A DNA stretch of 64,000 nt from the NCBI GenBank assembly GCA_964036195.1, contig OZ038458.1:16381832-16445831 (forward strand), written 5' to 3'. The DNA comes from Sphaerolaimus hirsutus (taxonomy: Eukaryota; Nematoda; Chromadorea; Monhysterida; Sphaerolaimidae). How positions within the stretch are numbered: the stretch's first letter is position 1; every line of letters starts with the position of its first letter. Under the pieces are notes generated by a model that worked only from the letters and a program-made list of their open reading frames with translations, ran no database searches and was not told the origin of the DNA. This document shows positions 19,297-64,000 of this stretch, piece after piece. The translations under genes were made by a program, and so were the position numbers.

Positions 19297-22200
19297 ATGT
19301 CGCCCAAACAGGCCGCGCTGCTTTGCTTGTTATTCGTAGTGACCACGACGGCGGCGAACACGAGCGGCAGCGACGCCGGTGAGCTGCCGCTGCAGCAGCA
19401 AAACGTTTTGCAGGTGCCAGTTCCGCAAATTGAGAAGTGAGAAGTAAAATGGCAAAAGCTAAGTAAAATGGCAAATGTGAAGTGAAATGGCAAGTAACTT
19501 GGCAAAAGTGAAGTGAAAAAGTAATTTCTCGTCACTTTTGCCATATACTTCCCAATTCACTTCGCATTTGCCATTTTACTTATCACTTCTCAATTTGCGG
19601 AACTGGCCCCAGGACAACCACGTGCCAACCAGTTCTTCCGAGTCCGTTGAAGCTCAGCCGGTGGAGGAAACTGGTGCACTTCGTTTCTGTGAATTGAGTT
19701 TGCATTCTTTTTAATTTTTTTATGTTTCTTTTGTCGCAGAGGTGGCAGAGTTGCCAAGCGCTTACCAGATTCTCAAATTGAAGTGGAGCGAAGTGAGCTT
19801 GCCCTTGGTGATTGCGGCATGGATACTCATCGCTTGCGTGGGAAAATTGGGTTAGTTGCCTGGAAAAACTCGTCGTTATAAGCATGCCTCAATTCACAAT
19901 TTCATTTCACAATGATCATTTCAGCGTTTCATGATTTTGTTTGAAAGTTTACCGAACATTCCAGTTTTCAATCTATGGCGGAAGCTGGCAGAGTCGTTCC
20001 CCGACAGTGCTTTATTGATTATTTTGGGTCTTCTCTTGGGACTTATTCTGTTTTATGTGTCCACAAAGGAGTCAATTCAGCTATCATCCAGAGTAAGTGA
20101 AAATTATTTTTGCATTAATATATGATCTGGTTATTAATGAAAAATAAAATAAAACACTTTGTCTTTACCACAACCCATCATTGTGTTCCCTCAATGTTGT
20201 TTTCTCTATTATACTCGCTTTGATAAGAATATTTTGCTCCCATTAAGAAAAACTGCAATATGTTTTGAAACCACATCGGAACTGAATCAAATACACAAAA
20301 TTTCAGCTGAAGGAAATCACTAAATATAACGAAATACTATGTTAGCAAATAATGTGGAACCAAATAATTTGAACCGAAACTAAAGTCAACAAAAAAATCA
20401 TGATAACATCATCTTTTTCCAGGTGTTCTTCCTGTACCTGCTTCCACCGATCGTTTTCGACGCTGGCTACTTCATGCCCAACCGGGCTTTCTTTGACAAC
20501 TTTGGCACAATACTCGTCTACGCCGTTATCGGTACTCTATGGAACACAGTAGCCATTGGTGAGTAACATTTGTCAATCTATTATACCATTGGGCATACAC
20601 ATACTACCTAGTTTGCACTGTGACTTGGTGAACACTGAAATGGCGACATGGCGACATCCTGTGTATACTTATTGTATGCTTTATTTATGTGTTTTAGTTT
20701 TCAAGTTTAAACTTTCATCAATTTAAATTCAAATTTGAATTGAATGAAATCATTCAACCGAGTTGATTCATTTGCATTTGAAATATTTTCAGTTTTCACC
20801 GATGTCACGGTGCAAACTGGTGTGCGTAGGTACATTGTTTTGAACACTGAATTTATTGGGTTGCGCGCAGGTCTGTCCCTGTGGGGGGCCCAGGCGTTGG
20901 GCCTGTTCACGTTGGACATCGCCCCATTAAACATTATGCTGTTTTCATCGCTCATCTCCGCCGTCGACCCGGTGGCTGTGCTGTGCGTGTTCGAAGAGGT
21001 GCATGTAAATGAGGTGCTGTATATAACTGTTTTTGGTGAGAGTCTCTTGAATGATGCCATTACTGTGGTCAGTTTTGGATGATTGTTTTTAAGGTTAGAG
21101 ACATTTACTGGGTTTTATCGGACTGTACGCAAGTATAAATCGACACTTTGCCATTTTTTCTTTTTTTGTGCGAAGTCGCTCAAATCTGATATTTATAAAT
21201 CCCAATTTACATTTCGCACAGGTACTATACCAAATATTTATCCAATTCAGCGAGATAAGCACAGTCGGATCTATCGCCATCACCGATGTCATTGGAGGAA
21301 TTCTATCATTTTTCATCGTCGGTATAGGTGGTGTTATTGTCGGTGTCTTATATGCTGCTTTGGTTAGCTTCATAACGAGGTTTGTTGAAGTAATTTTTAA
21401 TTGAGTTTATTGATTATGGTAATTAAATACTTTGCAACACTCAGATGGACGGGGCATGTAAAAATGCTCAACCCACTTTTCGTGTTCCTTGTGCCTTACT
21501 GTGCTTACCTGACGGCCGAGCTTCTCTCACTATCGGCTATAATGGCGTTAGTTTCCGATTTTAAGCCATTCATGCGCCGTGATAAGTGGCAATATTCAGG
21601 GAAGGTGACACATCTAGGTACTAGTTTTCAACGAAAAGGATTTAAATGTTAGCCTGAAAGTTTTAGACTTTGGCTGCGCTTTGCAGGGTCTGAAACTGAC
21701 CTCTAATGAGATATCTTGAATAATTCACCCTGATAGCTGAGTAGGTAAAGAAAAATTAATTCCCACGCTTAGGATCAATTTGTTGTGTCCAAATTGGACA
21801 AAAATGGCATGCTATTTTGTCAATAAAGCACAATTCATGCAATTAGTTGATAAAAGCATGCCTGAAAGTTTTGACGAAACAATAATCCCCCTAGAATAAT
21901 CCCATCGAATAGGTCCCCCTCAAAATTTCGAACGAAAAATAATTCGTAGGGAAATTTTTCGAGCAAATACGGTATAATGCATTCAAACTTCCCAATCATC
22001 AACACCATTGCTCAATGTGAAACGTGCACCAACTATCAAATGTCGTGTGTAAAACACCACCTCAAACCCGCAGCATCGTGTTCTGCGGCATCTGCATGAA
22101 GCAGTACGTCAAGGCGAACATCGGCAACAACGCGCGCATCGCCATTCGCTACATGGTCAAAGCGGCCAGCTGCTCGGCCGAGGCGATTATTTTCATGTTT

Positions 22201-25200
22201 CTGGGCTTGAGCTTCTTCACGTCGCTGAGGGACAGCTACTGGGACTTGTGGTTCATCGTGCTCACGCTGGTGTTCTGTTTGGTTTATAGAGCCATCGGTG
22301 AGGAGGTGGGGTTGTGGGAGATGTTAGGTTTTGAATTATGTCCCCTCACTTTCAACGATCTGGCGCTGGTTCCGCGTTGTGTCAAGGGTCAAAATGATTC
22401 ACGAAGTATAACATCTTTAGCAGTTTTTTGGCCACTTGCAGTTGCATTTTTAATAGCGATTTTTTCGATCTGACAAGTCGTGCTATGCCATGATTGGTTG
22501 TGTTCGATTTCTAACTGATATTCACGTCTCAAAAAAAAAATTAAATTTCCAGACACATAATGTGCCTACACACACTAGTTTTCACCGTGACTTCGTGTGA
22601 AAACTGAAATTTTTTAAAGTGCAAATTAATCAACACGGTTGAAGTACTTAATTAATTTTAAATTTGAATTGAAATTAATGAAAGTTAAACTTTGAAAATT
22701 TCAAAACACAAACACGTATAGCATACAATAAGAGTAGGTTGAATGTCGCCATGTGGCCATTTCAGTTTTCACACGTGTCACGGTGAAAACTAGTGTGTGT
22801 AGGGCCATTGAATCCCCATTCGTTTGTGCAAGTGTAGCAAATCATCACGTAAACCTCAAACAAGCTCCATTCGCACGCCCATAGGTGTCTTCGTGCAAAC
22901 GTACTTCCTGAACAAGACCCGCGTGCGTCACTTCGACCTGTTCGACCAGTTCATCATGGCCTATGGAGGGCTGCGCGGCGCCGTTGCATACGGCTTGGCT
23001 GTGGCTATAGGCCACGAAGTCTCCACTGATGTTGTGGATGAAGACACGCAGAAATTGTTTGTCATCACCTGTGAATGTGTCATATTCTTCACTGTATTCA
23101 TACAGGTGCGAGTGTACAGGGTGCGGGTTTTTTTGTGTTTTAATTTGGTAGTATTTTACATAATCGAGTGAAAACTGCTTTACAGGGTGCTACGATTAAA
23201 CCGTTGGTGAACCTACTAAATATTGAACGCCAAGACCACAGGGAAAAGTCATTAACAGAGAGCATTTTTGAAAGAGTGTGCGGCAACTGCATGGCCGGCG
23301 TTGAAGATATTTGTGGCTTGACTGGACATCACTGGTTGAGACATCGATTCGATTATTACAACACCAAATATTTGAAACCGATACTTCAACGACACCTGCA
23401 CTATGGTGAAGATATGAAAATTGTGCAGTCTTATCATAAATTTGTCGATGCAGACATTCGAATGAAGGCAGCTAGCGAAGCCAGCTCAAATGCGCGGCAC
23501 GTTTATATTTATATATTTTTAAATACCGTGTCTCCGGGAAATACCCGCCTCGAAATACCCCCCTCAAAATGGCCGCTTTGAATTTATACCCCCCCCTCGA
23601 AATACCAGCGTCGTTTAACCCCCCTCGTTTAACCTACAAAAGTCTCACTCTGCAAAAATAAACCCCCGGGGGGTGTTTGGAGGAAATACGGTTGATACAA
23701 ATTCAAACATGCAAATTTCCCGTCCAACATAACCACATTCCGCAATTACAGTTCACCAGAAAGCGGAATTACCAATGTTGCATATGAGGCAACCTGCGAA
23801 ATTGAAGACATTTCCGCGCCGTCTACTGCTCGCGAACACGTCCATTTCCACATGGCTGAACCTGAGGAGATAGATGAGAAGGCAGTGGAATTTGCTATGA
23901 GACGACCACTGAGTGTGAGTGATAGTTCTATCGATAACTGAGAGCGCTTTTAGTCGAAGATGACAAATGTGTCGACGACACGCGTGTCAAGAATAGTTGT
24001 GTCGACAAGAGTTGAACGCCAGTTTTGTATGAATTTTGATGACATGTGGACTGTGGAATTGGCCCGGCTTGAATATATTTGTACTGGCATAACAGTACGG
24101 CCCCATGGGGCAGTTCCAAGCCCTGTAAAGTGACAAGTAAAGTGTAAAGTAAAGTGTCAAATGTAAAGTCAAATGCAAAGTAAAGTGTCAATCAAAACAA
24201 AAAAGAAAAGATTTTATTACTGAACTTTGCATGACAATTGACAGTTTGCTTTGCATTTGACTTTACATTTGAGACTTTACTTTACTGGGACTGCCACCAG
24301 AAATGCTGCACTAAAGCCACACCGATATTTGACCATACCCAATTAGGTGCGCCGCATGTCGCGCTACTACCTCAACGACGAGGAGTCGCGGCACGATTTG
24401 GACGAGTTCCGTCTGCTGCGGCACCGCCGCAAGGGATCCAGCCAGAACTCGCAGCAGCACGCCATGAACGGGGCGGCGGCGGGGGCGCGGTGGAAGTGGA
24501 AGCGCCGGGCCACTGCCTACGACATCAACAGCACGCTGACGGCGCAGAACAAGAAGAAAGGTGGATCATTTCGTTGAGTGTATACTCGGCGGAAATCACA
24601 CTTTATATGGAAATCTACCATAACCTCAATATCTGAAAAATGAACAAAAAATTATACTATTTTTTCAACATAATGTTTCGTGTTTACTATGAAAAAAGTA
24701 ATTGCGAAATTTATCACAAGATTGTATTCATTAATTTATGGTAGGATTCTGCTCGTACTTTGCGGTGCGCCGACTATAATACCACTTTTCAACTGGTTTG
24801 CACATTTCGTGGCGTCGCAGCGACTCGGGGTGCCGATCCCAGCAGAAGTTTATCAGTGCATGATAGACCGCAGCAACCGCAACGTAACAGCAGTAGCGAG
24901 CAGCTGCAGCTGCAGCGACCGAACGAGCACGTTTCTGCCGCCCCCGTGGTGAAGGGCATCACTAAAAGTGCACATCGAGCCAGTGCGCAGAGTGGTTCGG
25001 GCACATCAAGAAATGTCCATCCGCTGAACAGAATCACGGAAGGTGTGCTCATTTCAACAGTTAGCGACAATCGCGCACTATCTGTCCCTGTGGCAACGTT
25101 CAGACAATCAGAGTTGTTAACATTAATGAACTTTTTCGCAGCATATACCTACCGTATACGTAAAATACTTTTTATACCCACCCCGAGTACAGAAAATGTA

Positions 25201-28885: not shown

Positions 28886-29084
28886 TATACTCCAGCGACA
28901 TTACACCGTACAATGAAATCTACCATATCCCATCTGAATAAAGGAACAAGTATAAATAAAACAATTTCATCATATTTATCAAAGCAATTTGATGAATATG
29001 ATGAAGATAAAAATTTATGTTTGTTCTTTTATTTAGATGGGATATGGTAAATTTCATTGTAAGGTGTAATGTCGCTGGAGTATA
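28886..29084. mobile_element. Near-perfect palindromic element, TATACTC family
   Basis: Arms of about 80 bp, starting TATACTCCAGCGACATTACA and ending with the inverse TGTAATGTCGCTGGAGTATA, surround a short AT-rich loop. Arm similarity looks higher than in other copies, suggesting a recent insertion or gene conversion. Confidence 0.8.
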
Positions 29085-31275: not shown

Positions 31276-33711
31276 GTACGCGCTGCTGTTGACGTCCGTC
31301 TTGGTGCTCGTGTGCGCCTTCATGCTGTTTCTGTTCTCACCCGTCATCGTGCTCAAGGGACCTCTTCCAGTGGGCACTTTCACCCCGGAAATGTTCGTTG
31401 ATTGGTTTAAAAAAGCCGTGAAAATTTTTTGGAAGACAGCATCGTCGTGAAACAGGACGGAGTAAAAAAGCAAAACAATATGAGTAGTCGAGAACGTAGA
31501 GTATTTACACGCACCCAACCCCAAGTACCGTATTTTCTTGAATAATCCCTCTGGGGAATCATTCTTTCGTCAGACTTATTGAGGGGGGAACTATTCGAAA
31601 GGAGAATTTTGCAAGGGAGGGATTATTTTTTCGTCAAAATTTTCAAGCATAGGTCTATCCAATCATTCCACAAAATCTGCCTGATAACCACAATAAAATG
31701 CCGCATTTGTTCAGATTGAACACAACAAATTGTCAAGGGAATTACTCAAGGGGAGGATTTTTTTCCTCAGTCGATTTACAGGGGTTTACTATTTTTGTTA
31801 TAAGGAATATACAGGAATAAACGGGCCAGTTCCGCAAGTGGAAAAGTTAAGAGTTAAAACATAAGAGTTGAGTAAAATGACAAATGACAAGTTATGAGTA
31901 AAGTTAAGAGTTAAGAGTTGAGTAAAACGACAAATCATTTTATTCAACTCTTAACTTTTAACTTTACTCTTAACTTATCGTTTATCATTTTACTCAACTC
32001 TTTACTCTTTACTCTTAACTTTTCCACTTGCGGAACCGGTACTTGATTTGTTCCTTAACGGGTTTCGAGTGCAAACTCCATTTTTGTATGGTGATTTTGA
32101 CACCTCTTGGCCAAATCCTCAATGGGTTTCGGATGCAAACTTTTTTATCTGCAGATAACGGGTTTCGGGTGCAAAAAATTATAGTTTTTTTTTGTAGATA
32201 ACGGGTTTCGAGTGCAAACTCACCTATTTTGGGCTGTAGATAACGGGTTTCGGATGCAAAGTTGCATTTTTTTCAAAAATCGGTATCTCTGTATCTCGGG
32301 AACGGTATGAGATATTGAGGTAATTTTTGTTTTATCATGAAGAAAATTGAAAATATGTATCAGATCCGCACTTAACTCATTTTTTTCAATTTTGCACTAA
32401 ACGGGTTACGGAACCAAACGCCTCAATTATTCAAGCAAATACGGCCGCTGATCTCTCAGCATCGCCGCCTACGTGCTGGGGCTGCTCAGCTGCGCGGGCG
32501 CCCTGCTCTGCTTCGGCTCCGTGGGCGTGCGGCTGGCCTACGCCGGCTTCGCCTACCCCACCGGCAGCTTCGTGCCCGTGTGCCCCGCGTCCGGCCAGCT
32601 CCTGTCGCAGCAGCTGCTTGCAGCGCGGGAAATGTACCTGCCGCCGCCGCAAGCGAACAACGGGCAGATGGACAAGCAGATGGAGGCGAACAGGGAGCTG
32701 CTAGAGCAGTATCCGCCGCCGGATTTGTGTTACTGGCAGTACAACGCGGCTAACCAGGCGCCCGTGTACTCGAATCTACAGCCGCACTCAGCGACGGCGA
32801 TGCGCGCTCCGGCCCCGACAACAATGCGCGATCAGGTGAAGCCAAAGCCAATTGAAAAACGAATATGCAGCAAAGCGACTTTGTACATTTTAGTATTACA
32901 CGCCGCGGACATTCGTACAGAGGAATCTCAGAGGAAAAAAATACCGTATTTTCTCGAAATACGCCCGGGGGGGGGGTTATTGTATCAGAATTTTGAGAAT
33001 TTTGAGGTGGTTTAAACGAGGGGGTTATTTCAAGGAAATACGGTAGTTAGCTGTCGCAAGACATATTCAACTGTCGCAAGATAAAGAGAAATGGTTCATA
33101 ATATTTACGTATTAACGGGTATTCCGGGTATTTATACTTACGTTTACATTTACATTTTCCAAAAATACCAGTATTTAACCAACTCTGCAAACAACCCTAC
33201 TTATTTACATCCACCTCTTAGACCTCCCCTCTATCGCCGAGCATAGCTAAAGTGCGCACGCCGCCCACGCGGCCGCGGCGGATGCACCACAGCCCGGCCA
33301 TGTGGAACATCCCGAGACTGTCGCCGGCGCTGCACCGACGCATGCCCGCCGTGCTGGTGGAGGCGGACAGCGGCGCGGCAGAGGACAGCAGCAGCGCGCC
33401 GCTATCCACGCCGCAGAGGCGACAGTCGCCGCCCGTCCAGGTGCCAATCCCAGACTCTGTAAAGTGTAAAATAAAGTGTAAAATGTCATGTGAACTGTCA
33501 TGCAAAGTGTCATGCAATGCAAGGGGTCAATTGTCAAGATAAATGTAAAGTCAAGTGTCAAAGTTCAGTAATAATATCATAACATTTTACATGATATTTT
33601 ACACTTTACTTTACACTTTACAGGGGCTGGGACTGCCCCCAGCCGGCTAGTCCGCTGCTCAGACCGCTCGCGCGCACCCAGGTCAAATATGTATATATGG
33701 GGTCGTTTTGA
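31276..33711 (+). CDS. Unidentified multi-pass membrane protein (3' part)
   Basis: Tentative exons are 31276-31404, 32460-32835, 33222-33440 and 33643-33711. The first encodes RYALLLTSVLVLVCAFMLFL, a clear membrane helix, and its donor is weak. The second starts with another helix (AAYVLGLLSCAGALLCFGSV) and then a polar tail with PPP and Gln-rich runs. The third and fourth are Pro, Ser and Arg-rich and end KYVYMGSF plus stop. The last three exons join cleanly in phase 0. The intron between the last two (33441-33642) is an introner-like element. I do not recognise the family; the pattern of paired helices and a long Pro-rich cytoplasmic tail suggests a plasma-membrane or adaptor-binding protein, by inference only. 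The 5' end and start codon were not found. Confidence 0.5.
31823..32042 (-). mobile_element. Introner-like element, reversed copy
   Basis: On the minus strand it starts GTACCGGTTCCGCAAGTGG and ends CCACTTGCGGAACTGGCCC. The arms repeat AAGTTAAGAGTTAAGAGTTG and its inverse. The edges lack the CAG or CTG flanks seen in other copies. Confidence 0.65.
32050..32420. repeat. Degenerate tandem array of AACGGGTTTCG units
   Basis: Units containing AACGGGTTTCGAGTGCAAA or close variants recur near 32057, 32111, 32157, 32199, 32241 and (diverged) 32399, spaced about 42-54 bp in the array. Function unknown; probably the repeated end of a transposon. Confidence 0.6.
32942..33045. mobile_element. Short TACCGTATT-family element
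   Basis: It starts TACCGTATTTTCTCGAAATA and ends TTTCAAGGAAATACGGTA. At about 104 bp it is the most compact complete copy seen here. Confidence 0.75.
33441..33642 (+). mobile_element. Introner-like element forming the last intron of the membrane-protein gene
   Basis: The exon ends GTCCAG, the element starts GTGCCAATCCCAGACTCTGT and ends GGGCTGGGACTGCCCC plus CAG, and the next exon continues CCG GCT in the same phase (0). The element is 202 bp. Arms contain TGTAAAGTGTAAAATAAAGT and its inverse. Confidence 0.85.
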
Positions 33712-38570: not shown

Positions 38571-41500
38571 ATGCCGAAGATCGGCGGCAGCGCGAGCGCG
38601 GCCAATTCACAGCAGGGCCCCAGCACGTCGACCGAGTGGCCGCTGCTGGCAAACTGCCAAGGTGAGCGCGCGACTGCATCATTCTGCTGGTGGTAGTGCG
38701 ACAGCGACACACTGCGCGCAGACGACCCGCCGCTGGTGCCCGTGCACGTGGCCGGAAGCGGCGTCCGCTTCGTGTCGTCCGACGCGCCCGGCGGCAGTCG
38801 CAGACGACGCGGCGGCGAAACCAAATGCAACAGGTGTTGCAAGTAAGTCGCTATTGAAATATAAATATTGTCTAAATGTGCTAGAAAAGGTATGTAACGC
38901 AGATCGCCACTATGCTGGCTAGCAGTTTTTATCGCGTGTCTTTTGGTGCTCGGTTTAGCCGCCTTTCTCATTTTCTGCCCCCTCGGATTGGGACTATTCA
39001 AGAGCAGCTCACAATTCCCATGGAAGGAGCTACGTCTACCCGACCATTTCCTACCGCTGAATTACGACCTACTAATGAGAATGGATTTGGAAGAGTTCAT
39101 ATTCGAGGGCAGGGTCATCATCACGTTGCGTCCCAACGAGCACAGCAGCGGCAGCGAGGCGCAGTTGGGCTAGTTCGGCAGCACTTAATTGCAGACAGTG
39201 CCGAGCCCTCGAACCACCCGCACGATCACCCTCACAGACACCGTCCTCGTGCACGTGGAGCACACCGAGCTGACGGTGGAGTGGGCGCGCGTCGTCTTCC
39301 CCGACAAGGTGGTCGTGACGCACAACGACGAGCAGCTGCTGCACGTGACCGGCACGCTGAACGACACCGAACTGCAGCTGGTCGCAGTGACGCTGTCGCG
39401 GCCGGTTCATGTGAATGAAACTGTGCACCTTGCATTTGGGTTTAGTGGAAACTTGACCAGCGATTTGGTTGGGCTTTACCTGAACCGATTCACGGATAGC
39501 GAAGGTGACATCAGGTAAATTGATGCTGATAGCTTGCATTGACTTCGAACAGAACGAACAGAAAAAGCCCACTGCTCAACCAATCCTGAAATGCAGTCAT
39601 TCAGCAGTGACGCAGTTCGAGCCGATTGAGGCGCGCCGCATGTTCCCGTGTTTGGACGAGCCGCGCTTCAAGTCCACATTCGACGTGGCGATCGTGCGCG
39701 ATCCGGAGCACATCAGCCTGTCTAACATGCCGGTCGGTTTAAACCGAAATTTGCAATTCTGCAGCCATTTGAGTGTTACAAGTAAATACAAATGATCGAG
39801 ATGCAAGAGAATTTGAAGTTTCATCTGAATTTAAAAATTATCGTTATGATAGCACCACTCCGGTATGCGGCAAACTGACAATGAATGTTTGTTGGAATTT
39901 TAGGAATCCCGCAAAAAACGATGGTTGAATGGTACAAATGGTTTTTAATTGTGCACAGATATTTTGCAAATATTTATTCACTGCGTATGTTGCAATGCAA
40001 AAATATTGTATGCGACTGCAAGCTAGCATAAACACCCACATATTTATAAATATTGTGGACCCCACAATGAATACCGGAGGTGTAAATATGACAAATGCAA
40101 AATAAAAACTACGACTATTGATAATTCAGCTGGTGCGCTCGACACCAGTCACGCAATCGATGGTGGTGTCTAGCAGCGACTTGGACAAGTGGCTGATGCG
40201 CGTGGGCACCGTCATGGATGTGTTCCAGCGTTCAGTGCGCATGAGCACTTACATCGTCGCCGTGGCTGTCGGCCGGTTCGATTCGCTAGAGACTCTCACG
40301 TCCAGTGGCACCAAGGTGAATGGCATAGTTGATTATGCGCCTTGTGGCAATGTATGTGACTAGTGATGGAATCGCGCCATGGCGCTTGCGCCATTGGCGT
40401 TTGGCGCCATTGCTCTGTGGCTCCCTTCGAGCCCTTTTTTCTGGCGCTTTTCCATCACTAAATGTGTCATAATTTACGACCATTATCCGACAGGTGGCGA
40501 TCTACGCGCCACCAGAGCAGATTCAAGACGGCCACTTCGCATTAGAATTCACGAAAGCAGCACTAGAATTTTTCAACGACTATTTCGCCATTGATTACGC
40601 CATCTCAAAGTTGGATCAACTGGCTGTGGTAGAATTTAGCGCGGGGGCAATGGAAAATTGGGGTTTGGTGACCTATCGAGATTCTTTATTGCTGTACAAT
40701 GAAATGTGGTCGACTGCCTTGTCTCAACAAAGGATAGCATCTGTTATTTGCCACGAGCTGGCTCACCAGGTAATGCAGTGCAGTGAATTGTTGTACATTT
40801 TTCTAACAGTGCAATGAAGCTTCAAATTACAGTGGTTCGGAAATTTGGTCACCATGAAGTGGTGGGACGACATCTGGCTGAATGAAGGCTTCGCTACATT
40901 TATGGAATACGTTGGCGTTGCAAGCATTAAACCGGAGTGGCAATTCGTTCGTTGTGATTAGCTCTTGGAAAAAGGGTTTGGAGAATATAATCGTGGCGGA
41001 ACTCGTGCAGTAAATATTGGCCCTACACACACTAGTTTTCACCGTGACCGATGTGGAAACTGAAATGGCGACATGGCGACATCCAGCCTACTCTTTTTGT
41101 ATGCTATATGTGTTTTAGTTTTCAAATTTTAACTTTCATTAATTTAAATTTAAATTTAAACAAATAAAATCATTTCACCGTGTTCATTAATTTGCATTTG
41201 AAAAAATTTTCAGTTTTCACACGAAGTCACGGTGAAAACTAGTGTGTGTAGGCAGAGTTGCGAAAGTGAATTTACACTTACCCGAAATACCCGGGTAAAT
41301 GGGTATTTATATTTACACTTACACTTTCATAAAATACCCATACTTTTTTCACACTTTCCTGAGCAAAATACCCGGGTACAGAAAGTGTATTTTTTTCTTT
41401 CAGATGACCCTGTTTTTTTGCTTTTGAGAAAGCATAAAATAGGGTCCTGTACAAAAAATGACTGCACAGTGCACACATGCAGTTATGCATCGAATGTAGA

Positions 41501-44500: not shown

Positions 44501-47129
44501 GAAACTCTTGAAATTTTATAAGTTTTACGTTTTTAAGCACAATTTTTTTTCATCAATATAAAATTGAAAAAAAATCCTCGAACGCTTTCCTAGAAAAAGT
44601 ACTTTATGTTTTTATGCATTTATCCTCGAGTGAAAAATCGAAAAACACAACGTATTGTTTCCCTGGAAATTATTCTTACATTTCTTTTACGTTTTACTAG
44701 TAGTTTACGTTTTCTGTACTCGGGTAGTAAATTTCAAACACTTTTTGTTTGGCGTCATTATTGGTGGCACGCACACTAGTTGATACATGTGTGTCAACTC
44801 AGATTTCTGCTTAAGCGTCGCAGAGCGATTACCAAATACACTCGCAGCAGTGTTGAAATATAAATATTGCGGCAAGTGCATTCGAAGATCGCGCTGCGAC
44901 ACGTGAAGCTGAAATCTGAGTTGACACAGACCAGTTGACACACACGTTCTGGCATAGCCCCACCAAACGGTTGACCTCAAACACACTCACATATCAGCGC
45001 TACATGTGGACTTTGGTGGGCCCGCTCTACGCGCGCGCTGGCGCCTGGCAGCCGGTGGAGGACATGACGCAACGGCGGCTGCAAGCGGCCATCGTGGAGC
45101 ACGCGTGCAACATCGACTTGCCTGAGTGCCTGCGCGATGCACAGACGCACTTTCAGAAATGGAGAAGTGACCAAACCAGGTTGGTCAACAAGCGATGGTG
45201 CTATTTTGCGAAGCCGGTATACTTTGCGAGCTGGCCACTTAATATGCTGTCAAAAAACAACACTTTCAATCGGATTAAGACGCATCACCTGTGGCATGTA
45301 AACTGTCGCATTCATTGAACACGAGAGCAACTTACCTAGCATGTAAACTGTCACGTCTGTGCCATATAAAATGTCACTTCACCGTTTCATGCAAAATACC
45401 CAGCATGTAAAGTGTCTTTTACCGCTGCGAGAGACTCCACATACGCAGCGTGGCGGCAGACCTGCGTCCGGTGGCTGTGAGAGAGGGCGTGCGTCGCGGC
45501 AATGACACAGACTGGCAGCTAGTGTGGGATCGCTACCTGGACGCGCAGCTGCCCAGCGTAAAGACGGACTACCTTGACGCTCTCGCCACCACAACAGACG
45601 CTGCCACAATGCACACGTGCGTGGACAAGCACTACACACACACACACCAGGATATCAACATCACTCAAATGACACGCAGGCTTCTGAACCGCGCGGTGCG
45701 GCACGAGAACATCAGTGCGCCTATCATGGCCGTGGTGTTCCGCTCGGCCGCCAGCTCCACGCTCGGCAGGCACATCGCGTGGCAGACGGTGCGAGCGAAT
45801 TGGCGCCAGCTGCACACGCAGTGAGTCAGGCTGCGGCTGATTGAGATTAGGATAAAGGCGGCCCGCATAGTAGTTGACATTTGTGTGCTGTCAACTGGTT
45901 TATGTCAACTGCAGATTTCAGCTCGTGTTGCAGGACGATCTTCCAATGCACTTGCCGTAATATTTATTTTTCAACATTGCCGCATGTGCATTTGGTGATC
46001 GCTCTGCGACACGAAAGCTGAAACCTGCAGTTGACATAAAACAATTATCAAACAAATGTCAAGTAGTGGGTGAGCTACCGAAGTCAGAAACTTTCACTGA
46101 AGTCACCGTTTCGCAGACTACACCAGTCGATGTTGCTGGGCAACTTGTTGTCGGGGATCATACTGGAGTTCACGGACCCCTTCGAGAAATTCGAGGTATG
46201 CCCGATTTCCATGCTTATTCTAGTTCCTTGGATGTGAAGGATGACAAAACACACATGCGTGAAACGGGGTCCAAACGGGAACCCCAATCCCGAATGCCTA
46301 AAAATTCTAGGTTTTTGCAATCCCAATCCCAAAATCTCTGAAAACCAATCCAGATCCGAAAATATTTGAAAACCCAATCCCGATACCGGAATTTTTTCTT
46401 CCAAATTTGCTAAACGACTTTTTTGCACTGCTTAAGAACGGAAACACATGGTGAAGCATGTTTTGCCACTTCTTGGTATACTCGGAGGACCACAAAGTAT
46501 GCGTAGGATCCTACCATAATTTAATGAATACAAATCTTGTGATACATTTCTTAATTAATTATTCCGCATTAAAAACAAAATATTATGATGAAAAACTGTA
46601 AAAAATTTGGTTCATTATTAAGATGGGTTATGGTAAGTTTCCATACTAAGTGTGATGTCCGCTGAGTATACCCAAGTTTCTTATCAGACCTTTTTTGTGA
46701 AAATTTAGGAAAAAACCCACATCAATACCAGAACATTGTCAAAAATATCCAACAATAGCCGAAAACGTGCCAATCCCGATAGCGTGACACTAATCACGAC
46801 CCGATCCCGAAAACTAAAAAACCTATCCCGCTCAAGAAAAGTCAATCCCGTTTGAACCCCAACACAAAGGCACACCAGACCGTTCATGTGACCTTTCATA
46901 TCATTTGAAAGTGAACCCCTCACCGGGCCGCGTCGACTATTAGACTCAATCAAATCAGAACCTGAAATTTTGCACTCAGGCAACGACATTCCTGAAGGGC
47001 AAGGAACTGGGCAAAAGTAAATCGCGCGTGGCACAGGCCCTGGAAATGATCGACGTTAACATACAGTGGAGATTGAAAAACCAAAACGACCTCAAACAGT
47101 GGCTCAACTCGCACAATCCCGCATCATGA
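38571..47129 (+). CDS. M1-family zinc aminopeptidase, type II membrane protein
   Basis: Fifteen exons: 38571-38661, 38722-38842, 38903-39129, 39199-39514, 39597-39732, 40130-40315, 40494-40769, 40833-40946, 42304-42570, 43020-43272, 43588-43943, 44998-45179, 45434-45820, 46117-46195 and 46980-47129; about 1,025-1,046 residues. After a short cytoplasmic N terminus comes one membrane anchor ([18 protein letters not shown]), then the M1 fold: [13 protein letters not shown], substrate motif GAMENWG, and the zinc site [13 protein letters not shown]...LNEGFA, which is HExxH-18-E split by a 63-base intron. Tyr of [12 protein letters not shown] is the expected catalytic tyrosine. The ERAP1-like C-terminal domain ends in a [14 protein letters not shown] helix. 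It should trim N-terminal residues from peptides, outside the cell or in the secretory lumen. Two in-frame stops (39171, 39183) fall in a proposed 69-base intron with a weak donor. A 63-base intron at 45617-45679 is optional. Large introns hold transposons. Confidence 0.94.
40361..40460. mobile_element. Compact hAT-like element with GGCGCC repeats in an aminopeptidase intron
   Basis: The inverted ends are TAGTGATGGAATCGCGCC and GCGCTTTTCCATCACTA. Flanks TATGTGAC and AATGTGTC match at 6 of 8 positions. At 100 bp it fills over half of the intron 40316-40493. Confidence 0.75.
41021..41252. mobile_element. CTACACACACTAG-family element in aminopeptidase intron 8
   Basis: The ends are CCCTACACACACTAGTTTTC and the inverse GAAAACTAGTGTGTGTAGG. 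The copy is close to 22563-22806. Its right edge was used as the target of the next element. Confidence 0.82.
41253..42029. mobile_element. hAT-like element with CAGAGTTG ends
   Basis: It starts CAGAGTTGCGAAAGTG and ends ACCGGTATTTTAACAACTCTG, with an exact 8-bp duplication TGTGTAGG at 41245-41252 and 42030-42037. Ends are built of TTTACACTTACACTTTC and AAATACCCGGGTA repeats. Fragments with the same words occur at 33110-33190 and elsewhere. Confidence 0.88.
42601..42970. mobile_element. TACCGTATT-family element in aminopeptidase intron 9
   Basis: It starts near TATTTATTACCTCGAAATAA and ends TATTCGAGGAAATACGGTA; GGGGGTATTTCGAGGG blocks recur. A truncated copy is at 42039-42135. Confidence 0.7.
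44763..44960. mobile_element. CTAGTTGACA-type element in aminopeptidase intron 11
   Basis: Ends read GGCACGCACACTAGTTGATA and, inverted, TTGACACACACGTTCTGGC. Inner arms GTCAACTCAGATTTC and GAAATCTGAGTTGAC are inverted copies. A related copy is at about 45866-46066. Confidence 0.65.
45866..46066. mobile_element. CTAGTTGACA-type element in aminopeptidase intron 13
   Basis: It carries inverted arms GTCAACTGCAGATTTCAGCT and AGCTGAAACCTGCAGTTGAC, with an outer TAGTTGACATTTGT and ACAAATGTCAAGTAGT pair. Confidence 0.65.
46263..46863. mobile_element. CCCGAT-repeat hAT-like element, interrupted
   Basis: It starts near GGGGTCCAAACGGGAACCCC and ends CCCGTTTGAACCCC, with AATCCCGATACC-type repeats at both ends, as in 12400-12848. 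A TATACTCGG-family element (46477-46670) is inserted in the middle. It lies in the last aminopeptidase intron. Confidence 0.65.
46477..46670. mobile_element. TATACTCGGCGGA-family element in the last aminopeptidase intron
   Basis: The ends are TATACTCGGAGGACCACAAA and GTGTGATGTCCGCTGAGTATA. The arms carry CCTACCATAATTTAATGAAT and an inverse with ATGGGTTATGGTAAG. Confidence 0.78.
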
Positions 47130-54600: not shown

Positions 54601-57600
54601 GACAATGTATTGTTATGTCTATTGTGGTCATATTATGACTGTGGAGTCATGGGATAGTATTACAAGCAGTGATTTCTTTCAAAAATATCCATGATGGGGT
54701 CGGGCCACCCCCGGCTGGTTTCAGGTCAGATGAAAGACCCCGAAACCTGAACCAGCCACAATTTTATTCCCGACTTTTGGCATTTTACACAAGTTGGAAA
54801 TCAGTCACTTTCAGTTTTTTCTCTTATTTACATCGACTTATTATGTATATTGCCTTTTGTCGACGTTTCGTGACTTCAAGTGAAGTTCAGCATGGAATAG
54901 TGCTAAAATAAGGTTGTAAGAGAAGGCTAATACATCCACAGTTATGTTACACACTGAAGAAGTATGTAGGAGCACATTGGTTTGATATTAAATACTACAC
55001 TAGCATATCAGGGCTTTTTATTACACGGTAACATGAATAAATGGATTTTTTACACTAAAATGCCCCAAAACTAGGGTGTCAAATTTCCGTTTTCCATTTC
55101 CGTTATCCGCAGGTAATTTTTTTCCGTTCCGTTTTCTGGCTGCTGAAATTTTTTTACCGTTTTCCGTTCCGTTTTCCGGCAACTTTTTTTTCCGTTTCCG
55201 TTTTTCCGGTTCATTTTCTGTTTTCTGGCTAAATTTTCAGTTTTTCCGCCTTTTTCCGTTTTCCGCCTCAATTTCCAGTTTTTCCGCTTTTTTTTCATTT
55301 TCCGCCTCAATTTTCCATTTTTCCGCCTCATTTTACCTTTTTCTGGCTCAACTTTCTGTTTTCTGTTCAGCCAAACTGGTAAAAATTCATGCAGATTGTC
55401 AATGATGTAAAAAATTTACCATTTCCAGCAAAATTACTGCAAATTTTTTTCACTTCCAGCAAAATTTCTGCAAATTTTATCCGCTTTCCGGCAAAACTTC
55501 AGCAAGTTTTTCCATTTCCATGCAAATTTGATTTTTCCGTTTCCGTTTTTCCGGCCTCTTTTTCCGTTTTCCGGCCGCTGAAATTTTTTTTCCGTTTTCT
55601 GCCAAGTGCAAATTTTTTTCCGTTTTCTGGCCCCTGAAAATTTTTTTTTGTTTCCGTTTTCCGTAAAAAAATATTTTTGACACCCTACCCAAAACCCATA
55701 AAAACACCACCAATGGTAATATGTATGAGAAATTGCGCGGTTGCGTGCAAAAAAATGTAAAATACCTAGTTCAAGTTCACCAGAAATTTTGTTTTTAGAT
55801 TTTTTAAAATTAAAATCAGTTTCCACCCTTTGATTTTTTAAAATAAAAAATCAGATTTAAAAAAAATTGTAAAAAAAATCAAGTGCCAACCCTAGTTCAT
55901 GCTAAAATTCGTGTTGATCATCATCTGAACTATTCAAATTCACACATTGTGGCTACACATCAAATGCCCAGAAAGTGGGGAGTTATTCAATTGGGGCAGG
56001 GGTTTAGTAAATGTGGACTCTGGCGGGGGTTTATATAGATAGTAAATAGCTCCTCCGGAGGGATAGATAGCTATTAAAAATTGGGGGGGGGGGGTGAAAA
56101 ATTAGCTACTAAAAGTAGGTGAAAAACAGCTAGAAATGTGTCTATAAGTACATATAGTACAAAAAATCGCTAAAAATAGGCAATAAGGAACGTGAATTAG
56201 AATTTTGAAGTGAAAAACTATAAAAAGGTACGAAAATTAGCGATTCTGGGCGAAAATTGGGCCAGCCATAGATAGATAGATAGCTGAGCGGGCCTCCGGG
56301 ATAGCTGGCGGTTTTTGTTTTTTGTTGGGGGGTTACCCCCCCCCCCCTACTAAACCCCTGAATTGGGGTATTTTTTTCTCACTTGGCTAACAGTGGAAGT
56401 TATTCAGGGATATACGGTAGTTTCGATCTTGTTTTCATGCGTGAATTTAGATTGTGTTCATCCTCGCAGGGATGTCACCGTCCCCTAAAACTGCTCGCGT
56501 AACATTGGCGAGTGGTGCCTCTGGCCGCAGCAGCGTCAAGTCCCAGTCCAGTGCGCAGGCGGCTGCGCGCGCAACCAAGGCACAGATGGATCAGAATAAA
56601 AAGACAGCCCTAGACGACACTACGGATGTTGACAGTTTGCCAAAACGAGGTGTGCTTGCGTTTTTTGTTTTCATCTTAATGCGTTTTTAAAGAACGATTC
56701 CAAGCTTTTATTAAGTCATCACATCTGTAGAAAGTGATAAACCGACCGGGGCCTTTATATTTATTTATCGGTACCGTGTCGGATAGGAAAGCCCGCTTTA
56801 GTTAAAATCGTCATTCCATTTATCAGACGCCATCGACACGCTAATCTGCGGCCAGTGCCGCGCCGTGTACCACGACTTTGGCGAGTACCGCGACCACCGG
56901 CGCGCCGACTGCCAGCTGCCGTCCGGCAAGCCCTCCGACGAGCCCCCGCAGGTGCCACTCCCAGACCCTGTAAAGAGCTCTGTAAAATGTCAAATGCAAA
57001 GTGTCAAAATTCATGTAGAATGCCCTTGAAAATGGCAACTAGGTTGCCATTTTGCAGGGCATTTTACGTGACTTTTGACACTTTGCATGACATTTGACAT
57101 TTTACAGGGCTCTTTACAGGGTCTGGGAGTGCCCCCAGGTGGTCTGCTTCGTCTGCAAGGACCAGTTCGATCACAGCTGGCACCTGCTCAAGCACCTGGC
57201 CGCGTCGCACAATCTCAAGGTGTACGCGTCCGATGATGCGGGTGCGGATTCCAGTGAACAAGGTCGGTTGTGTATTTTTGCAACTATTCTCGTGTCCGCT
57301 TTGCGCAGCAACTGGGGCGTGGAATTGGTGTGGAAGTGGTTAAATATGGCTGAGGTTTAAATCCCTTAAGGTTGGATGGTTCAAATGTCTGTTCTAATGT
57401 CTTCCATAGTCATTAAGATCTTATATTACAAAAAATACATTGTCTTGACTGTGTTGTCTAATACGTCTGTCTAATACTTCGTATATGGCGACTCACAAGT
57501 CACAACCATATTTGAGAGCTTAAAAAAACCATTTTTTCACATACATTTTCTATCTATTCCATAGGGCATACACACACTAGTTGACATCGCAAATTTATGT

Positions 57601-58119
57601 CAGCTGAATGTCAACTAAATAACACCAAAACATCTTTTATTCACAAACACTGAAAATTTAGTGTCACGATATAGCATGCTCTATCACACTTCAATTTGAA
57701 ATCACATAAAAACAAAATTTGTTGAATTTAGTTGACACGAATTTTGATGTCAACTAGTGTGTATGGGCCACAACCCATACAAAACTCCCACGTCCACTGA
57801 CCACTCCCCGCATCTGTTCCATGCCCTGGTTGCAACATATCAACTCATAGGTCATGATCCGACTTCGAAATCATCCAGTGTGGTCATCTCATGGAATCTA
57901 GAACAAGACGGACCTGAATCCGGAAAGCTTTTTGACGCGGTTTTCATGCCATTTCAAAAAGTAATTAAATGTCTTCATGCGTTTGCAGGCGAAAAAGAAA
58001 AAGAAAAGGATACAAAAGTGACTTCAAATGGGGATAGCGCTGAGCAGCCGGATAAATCTGGATCACCTGATAAATCGAAAGACGAAAAGGACAAGGATGA
58101 CGAAAATGCGGATGCGTAA
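48673..58119 (+). CDS. hnRNP C/RALY-type RRM protein with zinc fingers
   Basis: Recognised exons are 48673-48933, 49256-49346, 50061-50110, 54105-54205, 56470-56649, 56827-56951, 57139-57262 and 57989-58119. A Gly/Pro-rich start leads into an RRM: SRVFVGNLGTPAVTREMVID (RNP2), then KGYAFIQFSC (RNP1), ending PIDVKLAAS, as in hnRNP C and RALY. A Gly/Ser linker follows, then a Ser/Ala-rich segment. Two zinc-finger-like motifs come next: CGQC with a HRRADC end (C2HC-like) and CFVCKDQF with an HLLKHLAASH end (C2H2). The tail is acidic and Lys-rich. Nuclear RNA binding, perhaps in pre-mRNA packaging or splicing, is inferred from the RRM. Exon 3 ends in phase 0 but exon 4 begins in phase 2, so at least one exon between 50111 and 54104 is missing from this model; an assembly gap lies there. 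The intron 56952-57138 is an introner-like element. Confidence 0.82.
50367..51283. mobile_element. Mariner-like non-autonomous element with long inverted repeats
   Basis: Inverted arms of roughly 265-285 bp start CATGGTCGGGCTGAAAAGTC and end with the inverse GACTTTTCAGCCCGACCATG. TA lies at both edges (50365-50366 and 51284-51285), and AAGTCCCCGG near the end is typical of mariner termini. No transposase is present; the central part is AT-rich. It lies in an intron of the RRM gene. Confidence 0.8.
52068..52267. other. Assembly gap of 200 N
   Basis: Exactly 200 N. The sequence AAATATCAAATTT occurs immediately before and again immediately after the gap, so the flanking contigs may simply overlap and the true gap may be small or absent. 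Confidence 0.95.
52773..53436. mobile_element. hAT-like element, family TAGGGTTGG
   Basis: The ends are TAGGGTTGGAAAAAAAACG and ATCGGCCAACCCTA, with flanks CTCTAGAT (52765-52772) and CTCCAGAT (53437-53444), a 7 of 8 match. It is a short, fairly intact copy of the core shared with 2179-2531 and 9825-10952. Confidence 0.8.
53853..54051. mobile_element. TATACTCGGCGGA-family element in the RRM gene
   Basis: The ends are TATACTCGGCGGACAGCACA and GATGTCCGCCGAGTATA. It ends about 50 bases before the exon at 54105. Confidence 0.8.
54474..55894. mobile_element. hAT-like element, family TAGGGTTGG, host of a nested copy
   Basis: The ends are TAGGGTTGGAAAAAAATCAA and AAGTGCCAACCCTA, closest to 2783-4293. 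Element 55072-55687 is inserted in it, and a further insertion of unknown type lies at about 54690-54830. It lies in an intron of the RRM gene. Confidence 0.72.
55072..55687. mobile_element. hAT-like element with CCGTTTTCCGG-repeat body
   Basis: The ends are TAGGGTGTCAAATTTCCG and TTTGACACCCTA, with an exact 8-bp duplication CCCAAAAC at 55064-55071 and 55688-55695. Sister of 5404-5912. Confidence 0.9.
55997..56360. mobile_element. hAT-like element with CAGGGGTTTAGTA ends
   Basis: The ends are CAGGGGTTTAGTA and TACTAAACCCCTG, with an exact 8-bp duplication AATTGGGG at 55989-55996 and 56361-56368. Ends carry GATAGATAGCT words and G or C runs, as in 51436-53605. Confidence 0.88.
56952..57138 (+). 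mobile_element. Introner-like element forming an intron of the RRM zinc-finger gene
   Basis: The exon ends CCGCAG, the element starts GTGCCACTCCCAGACCCTGT and ends GGTCTGGGAGTGCCCC plus CAG, and the next exon reads GTG GTC TGC in phase 0. The element is 187 bp. The arms share AAATGTCAAATGCAAAGTGTC and its inverse. It separates the first zinc-finger motif from the second. Confidence 0.87.
57564..57769. mobile_element. CTAGTTGACA-type element in the last RRM-gene intron
   Basis: The ends are GGGCATACACACACTAGTTG and CAACTAGTGTGTATGGGCC, with TTGACATCG and GATGTCAA next inward. Non-coding. Confidence 0.8.
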
Positions 58120-59387: not shown

Positions 59388-59549
59388 CGCCCACACACGC
59401 TAGTTGACATCGGGACCAAATGTCAACTGGTTCCGATCCCGATTCAGAGCTTGCTGACGCGTGGACGAATGACGCTCAAACGCAATTATTGAATTAGGAA
59501 CGGAACCAGCTGACATTTGGTGTCGATGTCAACTAGTGTGTGTAGGGCC
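59388..59549. mobile_element. CTAGTTGACA-type element
   Basis: The ends are GCCCACACACGCTAGTTGAC and GTCAACTAGTGTGTGTAGGGC. Inner words GGAACCAGCTGACATTTGG and CCAAATGTCAACTGGTTCC are inverted copies. Confidence 0.8.
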
Positions 59550-60059: not shown

Positions 60060-60296
60060 GTGCCAGTCCCGCATGTAGACAAGTTCTTGACTCTTGATTT
60101 TGCTCATCACTGTTTTAACCTTACTCTCAGCTTTGCCACTTGCGTAACCGACGCCAGGGGAAGCCTCAGTGTCAATTGTGTATCCAAATCTTATGGTTGA
60201 ACATAAGATTTGGATACACAATTGACACTTTGGGACTGCCCCCTGGTGCTGGTTCCACAAGTGGCAAAGTACCTGCCACTTGCGGGACTGGGCCCT
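60060..60296 (+). mobile_element. Introner-like element with a second one nested inside
   Basis: The outer copy starts GTGCCAGTCCCGCATGTAG and ends CTTGCGGGACTGGGCC, flanked by CTG on both sides (60057-60059 and 60297-60299), which fits a 3-bp duplication. Inside, about 60154-60250, is a reversed copy with CCAGGGG and CCCCCTGG edges and a long near-perfect hairpin built on GTGTCAATTGTGTATCCAA. No host gene is recognised. Confidence 0.65.
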
Positions 60297-60600: not shown

Positions 60601-61154
60601 ATGAATACTTTGTTGGTTGTTTTGGCTGCCGGTGTGGTGTGCGCCATGGCGCACCACGAAGGTGAGCAACATGCCAGCCATGAGCAACATGCCAGCCACG
60701 AGGGAAGTGGTATGTGAACCAGTCGTTCATCATGTCCTTCTGGTGCCACTTACAGACCCTGTAAAATGTCAAAAAAAAATATGATATTTTAGATTGCTCA
60801 TGAGCACTCCTGTTCATTGCTCTGTCATGACACTGAATGACATTTACAGGGTCTGAGATTGGCCCCCACATGAATGCCCCTGCAAACGAAACCAGTGACG
60901 CAGGCGCTTATGACTTCTGCGGCAACTGCGTGTCCAGCGGCTGCAGACAACCAAGTTGCAAAAGCAGATGCATCGATTGCGGCCCGATCGGCCTCGGTAA
61001 CTCGTGGTTGAAAAGTATTTCTATGCGTTCACAGTTGTAGAATAAATAACAAACATTTGTAGTGAAACGCGGCGCAAAAGCCTTCTGCGACAAGTGCAAG
61101 AAAGAGCACTGCATGTTGCCTACATGTGGGCAGCTGTGCCGAAACGAGTGCTAG
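60601..61154 (+). CDS. Secreted two-domain cysteine-rich peptide precursor
   Basis: Exons are 60601-60709, then 60850-60996 or 60904-60996, then 61063-61154, all in phase 1, giving 115 or 97 residues. A signal peptide (MNTLLVVLAAGVVCAMA) is followed by a His/Glu-rich linker with two EQHASHE-like repeats. Two similar cysteine domains follow, each C-x2-C-x4-C-x4-C-x3-C-x(2-3)-C: CGNCVSSGCRQPSCKSRC and CDKCKKEHCMLPTCGQLC. They are separated by a Lys-Arg pair, a likely processing site, and one domain sits in each of the last two exons. Six cysteines per domain suggest three disulphides. The role is unknown; secreted defence, signalling or metal-binding peptides are all possible. The longer exon 2 uses an acceptor inside an introner-like element and adds an NET glycosylation site. 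A TATA box lies upstream. I do not recognise the family. Confidence 0.75.
60743..60868 (+). mobile_element. Introner-like element in intron 1 of the cysteine-rich peptide gene
   Basis: It starts GTGCCACTTACAGACCCTGT after CTG and ends ACAGGGTCTGAGATTGGCCCC. Its own GT is not the intron donor (that is at 60710). An internal TTTACAG|GG could act as acceptor, in which case its last 19 bases are translated. Confidence 0.6.
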
Positions 61155-61579: not shown

Positions 61580-64000
61580 CTGCAGAACGTTGGAAAGTTT
61601 TGCAAAAACGCTACTATTCGAACTGCCAAAACGTCACTGTCAACGTAAACAGCAATAGTCTACATTTATTACACAATCACATGTTTACAAAGCATAGTTT
61701 TTCAAACGTATTTACGTTAACTCAATAAATATGCACACTCGAGTGAGTACATAGCGTAAATACGTTTACGTTTCCCCCGGAAAAAATCCCACCGAGAACG
61801 GAAAATACAGAAAACGTACCTATTTCAAACAGGCTTTTTCAAGGCATAACGGAAAAAAGGGAGAGAAAAGCTAAAAATGGGGACAAAATATCCAAAATAG
61901 CAAAAACAAATAGTGAATTTGATGGTTTGAAAGTAAGCGATTTTGAATGAAAATTACCCATTACAAAAATTACAAAAATACCCACTTTTTTGTTTTCTGG
62001 GGAGATAAGTAATTTACTCACGTTTACTCATGAGTAAAAGTAAAAAATAAATACGTCACGCTTACTGTACTACTTTCGCTTTCTGTTCTGGAAGTGCCTG
62101 AAGCTCATCGTGAAGCTAGGTGGAAGACACTTTCGTGATGCCCCTTGATGATTCGTGATCAGGGAATTTCGAGATGCCGGTGGAAGCGTGGAAGAAAATG
62201 GACCCACGAAACATGGCACTTAACTGTCCACTCACTTTGGGGTAGTGAAAACGAGTCTATTTCCTGTCTCGTTTTTTTTTATTTTGTAATCAGCTGCACT
62301 CAGCGATGGGTAAGTTCTCCAAAAAAAATAACTTTCTGTGTTTTGAGTTTTTCAAAATTGAATAACTGTGTTTTTAGTTTTTTTTTGCAGAAAAAAACTT
62401 GAGTAACTCTGTTTTTATTTCTTTGTTTTTGATGAAAACTAGAGTTTGTTTTCCATGAAATTCAAGATCTTATTCAAATACAGTGTTTCAAGGCAAAAAG
62501 GGTGGTTTTCTCATGTAAAATTGGTTTATGCATGTTCAGGGGGCACTCAAACACCCTGTAAGATGTGCTGAAAAACGTAAACAGACATGTAAGATGTTTT
62601 TTAACTTGGTATTTGGCATTTTTGATGACATTTTACTTTACTGTTTACACTGCACATGAAATTTTACAGGAACTGTTATTGATAAAGTCGGCAGACGTAT
62701 CGCCCTACAAACATTTGCGTCAGTCTCTCCAGTGTAGAGTTCATGACGGCATTAGGTATTGTGACGCAAAATTTTAACCATTGGAATAGATCGGGTCACG
62801 TATGAAAACTTGGCCCCTATCCCAGTTACCAGTTGCGCATTATACAAATGAGAGTGAAAACTCAAAGTTAGCTAAAAATCGTTAAAATTTGCTTCGCTTT
62901 GCCAATTTCCACCTTCATAATCGCTATTTTTGTTTACATACATGGTTTTATAGCTATTGTGAGCCTATTTTATTCATATTTATATCGGATTTCGATATTT
63001 TGGCCGGCTGCCAAGTTCTCTTCTGTTGGAACAGAGCCAACGAATGAAAAAATAAAATAAAAACAAAAACGGTAGTTTGAACGATAAAACGATAGTTTGA
63101 ACGGTCAAATTCTTTTGCTTTCAACGAGCAACGTTGAAAATGTAGATAACAAGGGCGTGGCACGAACGCACGCAGCGAAATGTCCATTTTTCTTTTAATA
63201 TGATTTTCTTTTTTCAATTTATAGCGTCCGCGTGGGACACAAGTTTCGTTGTTCGCTCTATTCACGAGCGAATTCTTACTCTCCGATTTTGTAGGGTGAA
63301 ATGTCCGCCGACTTTACCATATAAACATCACTGTACCAACCCGCCCATCATTGAAATGTAGGAAAAAGCACCACAAAAATCAACAAGATGTCCACATGGT
63401 CAACAAAATCCAATGGGGCGCTGGGTGTAGCCCAACAAATCGGCCAGTAATATATTTATCAATCACTGTTTATTGCAAATTGCATATTGCAAATCTATCG
63501 AGCCCCTGCGAGGGTCAAAATCCTGGCTATTCCTGATCAAATGCGCATTCACTATTTTTTTTGCTCAAAAACAGCACAGTATTTCTCAGATCCAAAGAAA
63601 AAACTCCAAAAACGTTTTCTGTGTTTCCGTGTTTCCGTGTTCTCCAATAAAAAACTCATTTGAGTTTTTCAAATTTTTGAGTTTCCGTGTTTCTGTGTAA
63701 AACAAAAACACAGAAACTCAATGAGTTTCTGTGTTCAATTTCTGCGTTTTTTCCATCGTTGGCGGAACTGCAGACTGCAGTTATTATACCTACACTACGT
63801 ATTTTGCTAATTGTACACCTATCTGTCTGAGGCATTGTACTGTGTCTGCTCTTTGAGCCTTTGTATTCCCAGGTGTGTGTTCCCAGTGTATTTTATTTTC
63901 TTTGCTTGACAGAGTCAGGTTTGAGTCGGAATACTGAGTCGGGTTTGGCCAGAAGGTTCTGTGGCTGCTTACCTACATGATTTCGTATGTGAGCGCGAAT
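61580..64000. other. Right-hand spacer
   Basis: It holds a GTACAGAAAACGTA and AAATACGTTTACG-type repeat (about 61680-62070), TTTCTGTGTTTTGAGTTT repeats (about 62300-62420) that recur in the opposite part near 63600-63760 and may be ends of one element, a truncated introner-like copy (62538-62670), and the dispersed repeat shared with 130-350 (62780-63010). No exon beyond 61518-61579 was recognised. Confidence 0.5.
62538..62670 (-). mobile_element. Truncated introner-like element
   Basis: On the minus strand it ends GGGTGTTTGAGTGCCCCCTG; the other end stops at a TTTTACAGG without the GTGCCA start. Arms share ACATGTAAGATG and TTTTACTTTACTG words. Confidence 0.5.

Follow-up and report, generated by a model that had tools for sequence, protein, structure and literature searches.

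Genes and exonic elements

The window, by which we mean the whole 64 kb stretch of DNA that was analysed, contains three short hairpin elements that stand as predicted introns in three unrelated genes. The genes, elements and introns are the following:

19297..23487, + strand: Na+/H+ exchanger gene, 11 modelled exons with the 3' exons left out; the element is coding intron 1
19414..19609, + strand: subfamily A element from tip to tip, separating the first two coding exons of the exchanger
19414..19612: predicted intron of the exchanger (199 nt), the element plus the second CAG
19610..19612, + strand: second CAG flank, predicted 3' splice site
32458..33711, + strand: uncharacterised reading frame, part of a gene
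33441..33639, + strand: element of subfamily B in this GC-rich frame
33441..33642, + strand: predicted intron (202 nt)
33640..33642, + strand: second CAG flank, predicted 3' splice site
56472..58119, + strand: short zinc-finger-like gene, 4 exons, 185 aa
56952..57135, + strand: element of subfamily B between two zinc-finger-like segments
56952..57138, + strand: predicted intron (187 nt)
57136..57138, + strand: second CAG flank, predicted 3' splice site

The 11 exons modelled for the exchanger translate into 585 residues without a stop, with a near full-length match to Pfam Na_H_Exchanger (E 3.9e-79), and residues 67–571 align to the solved structure of NHE3. The element intron falls after residue 39, behind a start that we read as signal-peptide-like. 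An alignment across residues 35–50 was listed for 19 of 120 homologues, and the five of these that were inspected show a gapped linker there, so that conservation gives the junction no support. The best matches (best 120 of 3739 listed) come from Plectus (56% identity), Trichinella and Trichuris; in a midpoint-rooted tree built from the window sequence with 31 selected homologues, the exchanger groups with Plectus and with other rows that are chromadorean where named (98/94), a position that is unsure because its branch measures 1.74 changes per column. Five matches were obtained for SYS1, the best three at 42–44%, followed by the nematode Gongylonema at 48% and then by a plant. These protein matches are compatible with a host that is a nematode or belongs to a closely related group, for instance the nematomorphs. 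As for the two other host genes, the zinc-finger protein had no homologue at E 0.001 among 145 candidates, its matches in PDB and Pfam being for the most part to generic zinc fingers, with those in Pfam falling short of the cut-off, and its one NCBIfam match lying far below the cut-off of that family, and the frame bearing the 33441 element had no Pfam match in its first exon and ends in a last exon of only about 22 codons. The zinc-finger protein presumably resembles the N-terminal fingers of BCL11.

The coordinates and ends that an earlier note on this DNA had given for the three introns were confirmed: each starts with GTGCCA after an exonic CAG, ends in GCCC(C)CAG and measures 187–202 nt, the elements themselves being 196 bp (19414), 199 bp (33441) and 184 bp (56952) long when the second CAG is left aside. 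That note had also placed the introns in phase 0 of an unbroken frame, and indeed, with the element and a single CAG taken out, the exons on either side remain open and the phase 0 frame continues at all three loci; unspliced read-through meets stops within the element in every case. We infer their status as introns from these reading frames. The tips of the three elements are inverted repeats whose symmetry reaches far inwards and, in agreement with the end-to-end inverted-repeat structure claimed previously, each element, folded as RNA with 9 flanking bases on each side, forms one long hairpin, at −122.8 kcal/mol for 19414 (z −16.2), −78.7 kcal/mol for 33441 (z −8.5) and −143.9 kcal/mol for 56952 (z −20.4); none of 200 shuffles was equally stable for any of them.

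These introns were set against 23 others, modelled by eye on the continuity of frame and protein (27 were tried and 4 dropped, three having no GT-AG at the given ends and one not being located). Element tips occur at both ends of 3 of the 26 modelled introns, where they match the frame-restoring GT-AG ends to the base; tip scores are 18.1–20.8 in these three and negative at both ends in all 23 others. The end-to-end duplexes of the element introns reach −65.5 to −84.2 kcal/mol, and the best among the 23 host introns is −39.4 kcal/mol, in an intron that itself holds a further copy of the family (60743, see below). Hence introns of unrelated genes are alike up to both of their splice sites, as introners are. 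BLAST aligns the two ends of 33441 with those of 56952 (E 2.5e-6 and 4.7e-10). For 19414 it gave alignments over inner stretches to 56952 and to two further copies, but none to 33441 at E 1e-4; the tips are common to all. As judged from this anatomy, the insertion of TIR elements into coding exons, in the sole configuration competent for splicing, is well supported.

A family of short TIR elements and its flanks

The following further copies were found in the window:

24107..24297, − strand: subfamily B copy, GT tip at 24297, flanks CTG/ATG, antisense in a larger intron (by eye) near the 3' end of the exchanger
31823..32042, − strand: subfamily A copy, flanks CAA/GTT without duplication, outside any modelled exon
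60060..60294, + strand: composite element with subfamily A tips, flanks CTG/CTG, outside modelled exons
about 60158..60242, no strand assigned: shorter hairpin nested in the composite, with a B-type right tip, an approximate left boundary, and CAG and CTG flanking it
60743..60865, + strand: short copy, matching the family by its tips alone, flanks CTG/CCA, inside intron 60710..60903
62540..62670, no strand assigned: degenerate copy whose one clear tip, GG, follows CAG, with an approximate end coordinate, outside modelled exons

With the exonic elements, these make seven two-ended copies of 123–235 bp in 64 kb, short, several in number and bounded by TIRs, as is usual for MITEs; their boundaries were set by us from the tips, with the copies aligned in the same direction. 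Most of the extra copies that the earlier note had pointed out held up: 24107–24297 (given there as 24106), 31823 and 60743 are two-ended and 60060 is a composite, but 62540 (given as 62538) has one clear tip only, and a second was looked for and not found. The tips are asymmetric in all seven two-ended copies, with GT at one end, in the form GTGCC, GTACC or GTGGC, and GG at the other, in the form GG(G/C)(G/C)C. We distinguish two subfamilies, A comprising 19414, 31823 and 60060, and B comprising 33441, 56952 and 24107, and both 60743 and 62540 are B-like at the tips. Since 60743 has no BLAST match to any other copy, its membership rests on the tips. Identity between copies is about 62–81% over aligning stretches (BLAST, six copies as queries), which means that they are not a set of fresh, identical copies, and the suggestion that they form an active intron-gain system is not borne out by copies so diverged.

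When tip-like sites were paired at distances of 80–300 bp, 13 pairs were found in the window, whereas 10 first-order Markov resamples gave 0–3 each and 9 altogether. The enrichment is partly circular, these tips having themselves served to train the profile. Eight of the 13 pairs represent the seven two-ended copies, 60060 being paired twice, and the other five, at 38791, 39167, 46767, 54073 and 56849 (the last of which shares a true right tip), are due to chance. Several candidate relatives were discarded: 46767–47040 as a further element is such a chance pair, with its right end in the apparent last exons of an aminopeptidase gene; the tip-like matches at 2746 and 24830 have no partner tip of true strength; and the element tips have no true relative in the viral contigs and bacterial genomes that were compared, where one 23-base match (L001) has no second tip nearby, by eye. 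Neither Rfam, at its gathering thresholds, nor a scan for tRNAs gave a hit.

The window contains other repeats as well. A second MITE-like group, of inverted-repeat elements with ends like CACACACTAGTTTTCACCGTGAC or CACACACTAGTTGACATCG, occupies introns and spacers at 22559–22809, 41022–41252 and 59390–59546, and also near 20590, 44770, 45870 and 57565 (partly by eye). A larger inverted repeat at 50357–51293 has two 292-nt arms, 94% complementary and 353 nt apart, and an unrelated hairpin at 28886–29084 has 72-nt arms that are 92% complementary. Between aminopeptidase-like exons, at 45287–45420, lie GTAAACTGTCA-like repeat units that resemble the inner repeats of subfamily B. The minus strand at 47530–47590 reads like what we take to be ribosomal protein eL41. 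The gene that holds copy 60743, at 60601–61154, has three exons and encodes a small cysteine-rich protein with a signal-peptide-like start.

Copies that lie outside modelled exons and inside larger introns indicate that the family also behaves as an ordinary repeat. Two of them, 24107 and 60743, sit in larger introns with intron sequence on both sides, which for 60743 amounts to 33 and 38 bases of a 194-nt intron, and they lend some weight to another history for the exonic elements, namely that these landed in older introns whose splice sites then moved, or whose flanks eroded, to the element ends. We count on the same side the intron that BCL11 proteins presumably have in the linker between the same two fingers as at 56952. 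However, drift would not be expected to bring both intron ends exactly to the element tips in three genes, each time with a CAG on either side, and we regard such a history as very unlikely.

The bases that flank the elements point to a CWG target. Across the seven copies, the triplets on the GT side are CAG (three times), CTG, CAA, CTG and CTG; that is, CAG or CTG precedes the GT tip in six of the seven, and in three of the four that are not exonic, against 2.7% of the trinucleotides of the window. The 3-base flanks are identical in four copies of seven, the three exonic ones with CAG/CAG and 60060 with CTG/CTG; for random positions the figure is 2.3%. It has been pointed out for introners that AG pairs which all copies share are no proof of duplication on their own (PMC9860276), and this warning applies to our exonic copies, in which the three CAG pairs alone cannot separate duplication from splice-site constraint. 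Among the four non-exonic copies, the 3-base duplication is exact in one, matches at two of three bases in another and is absent from two; the flanks CTG/ATG, CAA/GTT and CTG/CCA either count against strict duplication or reflect age. Tips of the hAT type (CAGGGG...) with 8-bp duplications were rejected: even with 3-base shifts allowed, the longest junction repeats in the seven copies are 4, 4, 6, 3, none, 3 and none, and those longer than 3 run into element bases.

The near full-length symmetry and the hairpins recall the symmetrical stwintrons described in Hypoxylaceae (PMC8469720), and would suit a spread at the RNA level of the kind suggested for introner-like elements of fungi, in which spliced introns are inserted by reverse splicing and the hairpin protects the intron RNA. 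But copies occur outside modelled exons and antisense, and one is flanked by a CTG/CTG pair; CTG-flanked copies could not splice at their tips, since no AG is present there, and hence reverse splicing strikes us as extremely improbable. Transposition as DNA is favoured by the occurrence of copies, of either orientation, in introns as well as outside the modelled exons.

Predicted splice sites of the exonic elements

By a small profile built on the 23 host introns, the outer sites come out weak: the score is 3.7 for the donor, where host introns have 4.1–10.3, and 1.2, 2.0 and 1.5 for the acceptors, where host introns have 3.9–12.3. Both B copies (33441 and 56952) contain stronger acceptors, including in each case one that precedes the outer site by 19 nt; inside 19414 the same profile found none. 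The tips of the B copies (33610–33642 and 57110–57138) hold CTGTAAAG, whose reverse complement, CTTTACAG, is this inner acceptor; used alone, it would shift the frame. Among the GT-AG pairs that keep the frame and are free of stops, the outer pair ranks 4th of 12 at 19414, 9th of 29 at 33441 and 5th of 23 at 56952 (119, 187 and 93 GT-AG pairs examined, respectively). As a rule, splicing is more efficient in published introners than in other introns (PMC9860276), and the weakness of the outer sites therefore counts against reading these elements as introners.

The earlier description of the introns as ready-spliced can be kept as likely and no more: at all three loci the outer sites are weak and other frame-keeping pairs score higher. 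It could be, then, that an ordinary MITE has entered exons and that its splicing is absent, partial or directed to other sites, such as the internal acceptors of the B copies or AGs further downstream in the exon, leaving altered or broken alleles. To the weak outer acceptors and their higher-scoring alternatives may be added that the copies elsewhere look like ordinary repeats; nevertheless, we judge this rather unlikely, given that all three exonic copies lie in the single splice-competent arrangement and that the 11-exon exchanger model is otherwise free of stops. At 56952, moreover, the next downstream acceptor on the same donor, 57159, would remove VVCFVCK and with it two finger cysteines, a loss that favours the outer site; at 19414 and 33441 conservation is of no help in choosing the acceptor. 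By bringing the intron ends together, the hairpin itself may aid splicing.

Proposed origin of the predicted introns and relation to known introners

Taken together, we think it likely that these elements constitute a non-autonomous TIR family that inserts at CWG, probably duplicating it, and that an insertion becomes an intron if it hits CAG with its GT tip upstream. The family would consist of short (123–235 bp), MITE-like, non-autonomous TIR transposons that are near full-length palindromes, moved by a transposase encoded elsewhere; no transposase match was found by a Pfam scan of 18 reading frames of the window (part of its 118 frames of at least 90 aa) and of 2 gene models. In the proposed mechanism, the three bases of the target are probably duplicated on insertion. 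If it is the coding strand that reads CAG and the element has its GT tip upstream, the exonic CAG and the GT of the element would form the donor, the duplicated CAG after the element would provide the acceptor, and excision of the element with one CAG would rebuild the original exon; with a CTG target, or with the GG tip first, one or both splice sites would be missing. The three loci would accordingly represent insertions into formerly continuous exons, with a 3-bp duplication and with splicing exactly at the tips. CAG with the GT tip first is one of four possible arrangements and is seen in all three exonic copies, as expected if other exonic insertions have been purged; were the four equally likely and unselected, the chance of three competent copies out of three would be 1 in 64.

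In the introners of Micromonas and Aureococcus, the element reportedly brings one splice site and the duplicated target supplies its partner (Huff et al. 2016). TIR-bearing introner families whose splice sites derive from the target are established (Gozashti et al. 2022, PMC9860276), and the design in which the 5' splice site lies in the element and the 3' site comes from the target is among those described for introners (PMC9860276). Our elements share features with several known systems, and also depart from them: (i) As in the introners derived from DNA transposons described there, the predicted intron is one element end to end, bounded by TIRs; one splice site lies within the element, its partner would come from the duplicated target, and mRNA length would mostly stay the same. 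Unlike them, our elements reside in a nematode or close kin, fold as a hairpin over nearly the whole element, have CWG flanks, and are diverged, with three introns in view (PMC9860276). (ii) The introner elements described in Amoebophrya likewise have inverted repeats at the intron ends, hairpins that join the exon borders, and direct repeats of 3–5 nt overlapping those borders; they are reported among non-canonical introns and without a family-specific repeat, whereas ours are GT-AG introns with shared tips (PMC7789003). (iii) Fungal introner-like elements and symmetrical stwintrons are also symmetrical, hairpin-forming repeated introns at new positions; the stwintrons are described without short flanking duplications, in contrast to the CAG/CAG and CTG/CTG flanks and the copies outside modelled exons seen here (PMC8469720). 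(iv) Among animals, a gammarid paper mentions the introners of Oikopleura and an introner-like intron in a gene of a bdelloid rotifer, both, like ours, cases of animal introns to which that name is given (PMC10597677).

The 2022 survey reports introners in two animal groups only, copepods being named, and the word nematode does not appear in its main text (PMC9860276). A study of 104 nematode genomes counted intron gains and discusses why their source sequences go unrecognised (PMC9169325). The gammarid paper names 'Meloidogyne graminicola' as a dothideomycete fungus (PMC10597677). Among the matches listed in a search of titles and abstract openings of the open-licence literature, no report of introners in nematodes was found. 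We take the 'Meloidogyne graminicola' of the gammarid paper to be Mycosphaerella.

The origin of new introns is an old question, and introners have rarely been reported in animals. Tentatively, and with more doubt than we attach to the family itself, we propose that a nematode-like animal carries a GT/GG-tipped family whose CWG target supplies a complete acceptor as well as the exonic part of the donor, such that up to a quarter of its insertions into coding exons could be born as frame-perfect introns. If this is true, each such insertion here took place at a CAG glutamine codon, full-length RNA hairpins bring both splice sites together, and the family could be a source of new introns that had so far been missing from this branch of the animals. 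Should MITEs indeed settle as frame-neutral introns in a nematode-like animal, that source would be found in hosts that are open to species comparison and to reporters.
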